Below, piece after piece: positions 47,042-48,936 of a DNA stretch of 64,000 nt (the first letter of the stretch is position 1; every line of letters begins with the position of its first letter). The notes under the pieces are model-generated. The model saw nothing but the letters and a program-made list of their open reading frames with translations, was not told the DNA's origin and did not search any database. Source of the stretch: Flavobacteriales bacterium. Lineage in GTDB: Bacteria; Bacteroidota; Bacteroidia; Flavobacteriales_D; Crocinitomicaceae. The stretch lies in the NCBI GenBank assembly GCA_947491305.1, contig CANLIL010000004.1:1-64000 (forward strand). Direction: 5' to 3'. The position numbers and the translations under genes are program-made.

Positions 47042-47144
47042 CTACTTAATCCTTAATAAAAATTGATAATTGATTTAAAAATGAATATTTTTAGTGATTA
47101 TTTAGTTTAAAAAGCAACGGTTAGATTATTTCATCGTTTATTAA

Positions 47145-47732
47145 TTGATAATTGTGGGAAATAAAGAAGATTTAAAAGTGATTATTGAAGGATGTGCGCA
47201 AAAAAATCGCCGTTCACAAGAAGCGCTGTTTAAACTTTTTTATGGAAAATTATTACCTGTTTGTATGCGTTACATGCCTGACAAAGACAGTGCTCAAGAT
47301 GTTTTACAAATTGGTTTTATTAAAGTATTTGACAAAATAGCGTTGTTTGATTTTAGAGGTTCTTTTGAAGGTTGGATAAAGCGAATCATTGTCAATACAG
47401 CAATTGATGAAATACGAAAAAAAAATAAAAATGTGTTTTCGACGGATGTAGAACGTGATTTTAAATTTGAAAAGACGAATCCAGCAGAAGAACAAGAATT
47501 AGGTGATTTTGAGCGTATAAAAGCTGAACTTGCGATACAAGCAATTCAACAGCTTTCACCAGCTTACAGATCTGTTTTTAACTTATACGTGGTTGAAGAA
47601 TACACCCACAAAGAAATTGCAGAAATTTTAGGCATTAGTGAAGGAACATCAAAGTCTAATTATTCGAAAGCAAAACAAAATTTACAACGCATATTAGCTG
47701 CTAAATACGCTAAACTAGATGATTATGAATGA
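47145..47732 (+). CDS. ECF-type RNA polymerase sigma factor
   Basis: DKDSAQDVLQIGFIKVFDKIALFDFRGSFEGWIKRIIVNTAIDEIRKK; LSPAYRSVFNLYVVEEYTHKEIAEILGISEGTSKSNYSKAKQNL. TTG start in the track; GTG at 47154 also possible. Confidence 0.94.
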   Translation: MIIVGNKEDLKVIIEGCAQKNRRSQEALFKLFYGKLLPVCMRYMPDKDSAQDVLQIGFIKVFDKIALFDFRGSFEGWIKRIIVNTAIDEIRKKNKNVFSTDVERDFKFEKTNPAEEQELGDFERIKAELAIQAIQQLSPAYRSVFNLYVVEEYTHKEIAEILGISEGTSKSNYSKAKQNLQRILAAKYAKLDDYE

Positions 47733-48936
47733 TCAATTTGATAAAAAAATTAAAGAAACATTAGAAGGATACGAACTTCCTTATGATGCTGCTGCTTGGA
47801 ATCAATTGAATGGCAAAATGAATCGCACATCACTTTTGAAAAAAGGAATGGTTGCAGCTTCTTTACTTTCCATTTTTATAATTGGAAGTGTTTATTTATT
47901 GAAGTCAAATTCTACTAAAATTCTTTTAAAACCAACTCAAGATTCTAAAGCTTCACAATCTATTACCTCTACTAATAATACAACTTCAAAATCCAACGCT
48001 GTATATTCAACAAAAAAAGCAACAAATGCAACTGTTTCAACTCAAACAATCGTTGAGAAAACAACTACTAATGAAAATAAATTAGAAGCTTTTTTACAAA
48101 CTGAGTTACTTCCAGCATTAATTGACAACCCCATTTCCATTATTGCACAACAGGAAAACAATCAACTTAACGTAACTCCAACATTTCAAGCAGCAACTAT
48201 AGAACCAAACATAATGATACCCTCTAAAGTTTGTTTTGGTGATGAGATTCATTTTAATTATTTAAGCGACAACGATTTTTGGATTATTGATCCAACAGGA
48301 AATAAGGACATTTTTAATTCTACTTATAAACCTCAATTTGAAGGTAAATTCACCGTAGTTTCAAGAGACAAAACATTGGGTTCATTTATAGTTTTACCTT
48401 CTCCTAAAATTGATTTTTCTATAAACGACGATGATAAATACGAAAATGGATTGCCAATCGCTAAGTTATCAGCAAGTGGTAACGCATCTACTTTCAACTG
48501 GATCATAAACGCTAAAAAATATACGGGTACAGAATGCCAAGTTCACTTGTTTCAAAAAGGAATTTATTCAATTCATTTAAGTGCTCAAAATTCAATTGGA
48601 TGTAGCACAGAAATCACCAAAGAAATAACGATTGAATCTGATTACAACTTGTTAGCTGCAACAGCTTTTGATTTGCAATCGCGTGATAAACGCAATAACT
48701 CCTTTATTCCTTTTGCATTAACTGTTAGATCTGTAGATTTCGCCATGATCATTATCGATCCGAAAGATGGTGGAATTCTTTTTGAAACGACTGATGCTTC
48801 AAATCCTTGGACAGGAATTGACAAAAGAACTGGTCAATTGGTGGAAACAAACAAACCTTTCATTTGGAAAGTTGTACTAAAAAATCCTGAACAAGGAGAA
48901 AAAGCAGACTATAAAGGTGTAATTACGCGCCTGTAA
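47719..48936 (+). CDS. single-pass membrane protein (anti-sigma-like position) with PKD-like and T9SS type-B/gliding-motility CTD-like periplasmic region
   Basis: Overlaps sigma gene by 14 bp; N-terminal cytoplasmic segment, TM MVAASLLSIFIIGSVYLL, C-terminal FAMIIIDPKDGGILFETTDASNPWTGIDKRTGQLVETNKPFIWKVVLKNPEQGEKADYKGVITRL. Confidence 0.75.
   Translation: MIMNDQFDKKIKETLEGYELPYDAAAWNQLNGKMNRTSLLKKGMVAASLLSIFIIGSVYLLKSNSTKILLKPTQDSKASQSITSTNNTTSKSNAVYSTKKATNATVSTQTIVEKTTTNENKLEAFLQTELLPALIDNPISIIAQQENNQLNVTPTFQAATIEPNIMIPSKVCFGDEIHFNYLSDNDFWIIDPTGNKDIFNSTYKPQFEGKFTVVSRDKTLGSFIVLPSPKIDFSINDDDKYENGLPIAKLSASGNASTFNWIINAKKYTGTECQVHLFQKGIYSIHLSAQNSIGCSTEITKEITIESDYNLLAATAFDLQSRDKRNNSFIPFALTVRSVDFAMIIIDPKDGGILFETTDASNPWTGIDKRTGQLVETNKPFIWKVVLKNPEQGEKADYKGVITRL

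Follow-up and report, generated by a model that had tools for sequence, protein, structure and literature searches.

An ECF Sigma Factor Paired with a Putative Transmembrane Anti-Sigma Factor That Ends in a T9SS Type-B CTD-Like Domain

How the supply of huge surface adhesins is matched to T9SS capacity in Bacteroidota is an open question, and a locus from a member of the Crocinitomicaceae (Flavobacteriales bacterium; GenBank assembly GCA_947491305.1) raises it in a compact form. Within the window, a stretch of 64,000 nucleotides of contig CANLIL010000004.1, an ECF sigma factor gene overlaps a gene for a membrane protein whose end resembles the C-terminal domain (CTD) of T9SS type-B cargo. Why should a protein that sits where an anti-sigma factor is expected end in what is normally a secretion signal? 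Here, we describe the architecture of this pair, its conservation, its promoter and predicted regulon, and the relatives that bear on what the CTD might do.

Results

Layout of the Sigma/Partner Pair

The features of the locus are collected in Table 1. The sigma ORF is listed from a TTG codon; the true start is probably the GTG at 47154, since orthologues begin there and the predicted promoter ends at 47138. The boxes of this promoter are GCAACG (−35; 47114 through 47119) and CGTT (−10; 47135 through 47138), and the pattern RGCAACS-N15-CGTY has only three sites in the window's own genome, a 2.5 Mb draft whose closest named relatives belong to the Crocinitomicaceae. The partner gene starts 14 bp inside the sigma gene (stop counted), which upholds an earlier note on this DNA that had placed it at the anti-sigma position. 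The same note had described a short cytoplasmic N terminus, one transmembrane (TM) helix, a PKD-like region, and no secretory signal; each of these elements was recovered, with a single hydrophobic segment and no N-terminal signal peptide ahead of it.

The partner matches no Pfam family at E ≤ 1 and hence has no recognizable ASDI (Class I) or zinc-finger anti-sigma domain; its cytoplasmic segment resembles none of the known anti-sigma domains. Some relatives have this segment repeated in tandem, two to five times. The linker that follows the TM helix ranges from 100 to 156 aa across the family (median 121). Beyond it, residues 165 through 405 are predicted by AlphaFold to form three β-sandwich units with pLDDT mostly >90. 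Pfam searches with orthologues detect PKD_4 in 28 of 41 and PKD in 25 of 41, and the best PKD structure match is 4l9d (TM 0.80 over 86 columns). Residues that are invariant in the family alignment include W27 of the cytoplasmic segment, the cysteines C172 and C295, and, within the CTD, W364, G366, and W383. A fold search with the full-length protein returned tandem Ig-like proteins only (top, GhpA of Aureispira, TM 0.3) and was not used as evidence.

A DUF3078-type gene (48937 through 49894, − strand) adjoins the pair. In the window its reading frame is interrupted, both by an in-frame stop and by a shift of frame, which makes it either a pseudogene or an assembly error; in the nearest relatives it is intact (318 to 331 aa), and in loci L070 and L083 it lies directly upstream of sigma.

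Table 1. Features of the sigma/partner locus (positions in the window)
Feature	Position	Strand	Evidence
Predicted ECF promoter of the sigma/anti-sigma operon, AGCAACG-N15-CGTT	47113..47138	+	Fixed-spacing motif upstream of sigma genes
ECF sigma factor gene (listed start TTG 47145)	47145..47732	+	Sigma70_r2 3e-15, Sigma70_r4_2 8.5e-17 (Pfam); TIGR02937 2e-27 (NCBIfam)
Putative transmembrane anti-sigma factor with type-B-CTD-like C terminus, 405 aa	47719..48936	+	Adjoins sigma in 43/43 relative loci with upstream region; alignment
Cytoplasmic segment, aa 1-42, invariant W27	47719..47844	+	Invariant alignment column; tandem copies in some relatives
Transmembrane helix, aa 43-61	47845..47901	+	Hydropathy peak 2.15 at aa 43; predicted helix 49-61
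Disordered N/S/T/E/K-rich tether, aa 62-165	47902..48213	+	pLDDT <50 for residues 58-159 (AlphaFold)
Two Ig/PKD-like domains, aa 166-305, invariant C172 and C295	48214..48633	+	PKD models in orthologues; confident fold
T9SS type-B CTD-like domain, aa 306-405	48634..48933	+	CHU_C/TIGR04131 in orthologues; hhalign to own-genome cargo CTDs; pLDDT 94.9

The C Terminus Is Related to Type-B Cargo CTDs

The proposed resemblance to the CHU_C/T9SS type-B domain divides according to the protein that is searched. The window partner itself matches no relevant model in Pfam or NCBIfam, but its orthologues do: CHU_C (PF13585) is found in 20 of 41 (best E 2.8e-16) and TIGR04131 in 15 of 41 (best E 1.7e-10). 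Comparison by hhalign with ten type-B cargo CTDs from the same genome gives E = 6.6e-6 for window residues 306 through 405 alone (at a probability of only 67%), 1.4e-11 when genus-level orthologues are included, and 7.7e-21 with the whole family, versus 0.86, 0.03, and 0.14 for control comparisons using the N terminus and PKD parts of the same partner. In addition, the PKD and CTD part of the family profile matches bona fide cargo proteins of 700 to 4600 aa (best E 5.7e-41). Structure prediction gave a mixed answer: the CTD modelled alone is confidently folded (pLDDT 94.9), but a PDB fold search with this model found no significant match (best, PorZ, E 0.11). Based on the orthologue model matches, the profile comparisons, and the recovery of true cargo by the family profile, we conclude from sequence comparison that the C-terminal domain is a homologue of the type-B CTD in which one motif has decayed in the window's lineage.

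As in type-B cargo, the domain lies at the extreme C terminus, following Ig/PKD domains. Its carrier, with a cytoplasmic segment of ∼42 aa and then a TM helix in place of a cleavable Sec signal peptide, is not a secreted cargo protein. The decayed motif is the first, which reads ATAFDLQSRDKRNNSF in the window's lineage versus PNTFTPDGDxxN in cargo; several relatives keep the textbook form (e.g., NLLAPNSFTPNGDGINDFF), and many members outside the window's genus have intact motifs such as FTPNGDGIND. All five type-B CTD motifs are required for secretion in F. johnsoniae (PMC12618676), and because the first is gone, docking could be lost or altered in the window member.

The Pair Is Conserved across the Order

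Among the 60 relatives compared, 43 loci include the upstream region, and the cognate sigma gene is directly upstream of the partner in all 43, mostly overlapping it or a few bases apart. Further loci were collected by scanning genome contigs with the sigma alignment. A search across the order covered 299 genomes, with five candidates scored in each, and the matches listed as best were nearly all full-length, in open frames of 400 to 500 aa; because of the five-candidate limit, low scores in this search are not absences. The sigma, TM helix, and CTD arrangement is co-conserved across the order. An apparent absence of the partner gene in families f4 and f8 was rejected, as the sigma search found divergent CTD-type partners there that adjoin sigma and are preceded by the same promoter. 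In two loci of the same sigma clade (L066 and L068) the partners have short tails and no CTD. Co-occurrence with the T9SS was discarded as evidence: SprA is found in 291 of the 299 genomes, and because nearly every genome of the order carries it, the comparison is uninformative.

Two observations concern individual records. The family f4 genomes of loci L278 through L281 have, besides the main pair, a paralogue of the sigma gene, and the protein encoded behind this paralogue has a CTD-like end. Three public records titled Glaciecola amylolytica (L059), Candidatus Kuenenia (L050), and Chryseobacterium (L052) contain the sigma locus in a sequence close to the Crocinitomicaceae type, and these contigs are probably mistitled.

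A Fixed-Spacing Promoter Motif Points to a Predicted Cargo Regulon

The motif GGCAACC-N15-CGTY precedes sigma in 84 of 123 loci (shuffle mean 0.5), and its spacing is exactly 15 in 71 of these 84. It has the form of an ECF promoter, and from its recurrence upstream of sigma we infer that the sigma factor transcribes its own operon. Ten relatives have 42 strict sites, compared with 16 for the reversed pattern; nine are the sigma genes themselves and 33 are others. Twelve of these 33 stand in front of operons that open with genes for type-B CTD proteins or a PorP/SprF barrel, often preceded by one for a small secreted protein, and three further sites belong to truncated orthologues of the same operons. 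Among the predicted targets, NCBIfam confirms TIGR04131 in six cargo proteins, while the PorP-like one matches TIGR03519 below the curated cut-off. For 12 of 33, the binomial probability is 3e-8 at a background of 5%, an assumption that we regard as generous and that we derived from the 29 TIGR04131 matches counted in the window's own genome.

In that genome a loose form of the pattern shows no overall enrichment (17 sites versus 28 reversed controls). One of its two GGCAAC sites (GGCAAC-N16-CGTC) is 25 bp upstream of the ATG with which a type-B cargo gene starts; a second cargo gene comes next. No non-sigma promoter site led to cargo in two genomes of family f9 (G044 and G054). Type-B cargo is also encoded by the very next gene after the anti-sigma gene in 7 of the 37 loci with enough sequence. 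Through operon neighbors and promoter copies, a functional tie of the pair to T9SS cargo is supported at the level of predicted targets, independent of the CTD itself.

Several small products accompany these promoters. In seven genomes of family f9 from four or more genera (G044, G054, G363, G373, G393, G448, and G519; loci L307 through L313), a nearly invariant candidate small RNA of ∼83 nt with a terminator begins ∼16 bp after a GAGGCAACC-N15-CGTC promoter. It has a fold z of −3.1 and no Rfam match and is possibly a product of the same sigma's control. This family also has two promoter-like sites in tandem, of which the first was set aside, as it is probably within response-regulator coding sequence. 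Eight loci (L222, L223, L225, L227, L229, L231, L237, and L240) encode small secreted proteins of 115 to 182 aa whose family was not recognized, most of them encoded with the ECF promoter on one side and the gene of a giant type-B cargo protein on the other. Right behind an ECF promoter, L232 encodes a 113-aa protein that is little beyond a signal peptide and a type-B-CTD-like domain, with no match to TIGR04131.

Relatives with a PorP/SprF-Like Barrel in Place of the CTD

In L085 and its relatives, from at least two families, sigma is followed by a protein that ends not in the CTD but in a PorP/SprF-like barrel (PF11751 1.5e-21 in L085); its cytoplasmic part has one to five W-segments and is joined to the barrel by a TM helix and a tether. 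In L085, L291 through L294, and L297, the gene after this fused form specifies a protein that resembles a lipoprotein and has a type-B CTD (TIGR04131 3.5e-14 in L085). In the sigma tree, eight of nine fused-form sigmas form one group nested among the sigmas of CTD forms. PorP/SprF barrels are binding partners of type-B CTDs (PMC9143113; PMC12618676); with a barrel in the fused form and a CTD in the window form, the two therefore appear to be socket and plug of one interface. The partner's sigma homologues also share one tree with sigmas paired with barrels: more distant relatives are found with OMP_b-brl_2 barrels, and the W-motif profile matches barrel-type partners (L091, L098, L100, L105, L106, L112, and L116). 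Separately, L236 and L299 have a PorP/SprF-like barrel gene followed by one for a small lipoprotein-like type-B CTD protein, without the anti-sigma part; the latter protein resembles the partner of the fused form.

Discussion

A Docking Model and Its Alternatives

We lean, by a little more than even belief, toward reading the locus as an autoregulated ECF sigma/transmembrane anti-sigma pair through which transcription responds to how type-B export by the T9SS stands at the outer membrane; the core of this reading (an anti-sigma factor, a link to the type-B T9SS, and the CTD as a docking or sensing module) is held about as firmly. The cytoplasmic W-motif segment would hold sigma, and the single TM helix would anchor a disordered tether of ∼100 residues that would carry the two Ig/PKD domains and the CTD to the outer membrane; there, the CTD may dock on a PorP/SprF-type shuttle barrel. 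Changed docking (through cargo competition, lack of free shuttle, or a jam) would expose the anti-sigma factor to proteolysis, and the freed sigma would transcribe its own operon together with type-B cargo and PorP/SprF operons via GGCAACC-N15-CGTY promoters. In this docking model we infer the binding of sigma, the docking, the proteolysis, and the sign of the signal; the sequences themselves give the architecture, the homology of the CTD, the conserved pairing, the promoter, the cargo regulon predicted in relatives, and the complementary PorP/SprF-fused form. Both the parallel with Dma (dual-membrane-spanning) anti-sigmas and the relatives fused to PorP/SprF suggest a tether that extends to the outer membrane and docks on the shuttle, rather than leaving the CTD free in the periplasm. 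More tentatively, with doubt somewhat outweighing belief, this class of anti-sigmas may use both halves of the type-B recognition interface as a sensor, either the plug (CTD) or the socket (PorP/SprF barrel, beside a CTD lipoprotein), such that how fully the export shuttle is occupied at the outer membrane would be read directly in the cytoplasm to adjust cargo expression. In the literature searched we found no experiment on binding, secretion, or expression that dealt with this sigma/partner pair.

The CTD might instead be a working export signal. The C-terminal part would then pass SprA and stay on a surface PorP/SprF barrel with the N terminus still in the inner membrane, and the Ig/PKD domains would sense the outside (a surface, ligand, or neighbor), as RsgI-type or Dma anti-sigmas may do. 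A tether of 100 to 156 aa is long enough to span the periplasm, PorP-like proteins hold type-B CTD proteins at the surface (PMC9143113), and intact first motifs are common outside the window's genus. However, the decay of that motif speaks against real export in the window's lineage, and a chain still fixed in the inner membrane should obstruct the translocon on entering it; we consider this reading unlikely.

Rather more unlikely is that a CTD fold recruited from a cargo gene now senses only general trouble in the envelope, such as proteins that are stuck or misfolded, and does not dock specifically on the T9SS. This would accommodate the decayed motif, the CTD-less short tails of L066 and L068, and the use of plain outer-membrane barrels by related sigmas, but the predicted targets and neighbors are type-B cargo and PorP/SprF rather than chaperones, and W364, G366, and W383 of the CTD are invariant. 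The proposal of the earlier note, a free periplasmic cargo mimic whose CTD competes with cargo at the periplasmic T9SS entrance and reports secretion load with no barrel docking, fits the lack of a cleavable signal, the single TM helix, the CTD homology, and the cargo-linked regulon, but at the corresponding position of the protein the fused relatives have the outer-membrane receptor instead of a soluble domain in the periplasm, which makes it improbable.

Comparison with Known Systems

No description of a CTD-bearing or SprF-fused anti-sigma was found in the literature searched (preprints and most subscription journals were outside the search). Like type-B cargo (TIGR04131/CHU_C) such as SprB, the partner has PKD/Ig domains and then a type-B CTD at the very C terminus; unlike SprB, it has no cleavable Sec signal, is anchored in the inner membrane, and is encoded beside a sigma gene. 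In the PorA–PorXY–SigP pathway of Porphyromonas gingivalis a CTD-bearing protein likewise feeds into the control of T9SS genes by an ECF sigma, but PorA is a secreted cargo protein that signals via a histidine kinase (PMC7712824), whereas here the CTD is within the putative anti-sigma factor. The SM6 ECF regulon of Flavobacterium psychrophilum shares a −10 CGT box promoter, a sigma/anti-sigma pair, and T9SS genes (GldN and PorU), although its listed targets are T9SS machinery and not type-B cargo (PMC9723704).

The closest parallel is with Dma anti-sigmas, which have a segment–TM–tether–outer-membrane-domain layout and repress their sigma (PMC13088901). The partner likewise has one TM helix, a long disordered tether, and an adjacent ECF sigma; its N-terminal sigma-binding region is putative and its outer-membrane location predicted. 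It differs in that its C terminus is made of Ig/PKD domains and a type-B CTD, not a β-barrel, and in its predicted targets (type-B cargo and PorP/SprF, as opposed to NigD1 or OMV-related genes for Dma; PMC13088901). The related sigmas found here with OMP_b-brl_2 barrels do have the Dma layout (PMC13088901). As to group ECF21, to which the cognate sigma of a Dma should belong, homologues of the sigma described here share a tree with the barrel-paired sigmas. Because the C-terminal barrel is absent, we describe the partner only as working like a Dma; with neither a barrel nor a signal peptide, it is filed neither as Dma nor as T9SS cargo. The pair is a defined one-component candidate for matching adhesin supply to T9SS capacity, and it brings a testable promoter sequence, a predicted target list, and plug and socket variants that make the docking model directly testable. 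If the model holds, the principle recently described for Dma anti-sigmas would no longer be confined to barrels but would cover a secretion signal as well.
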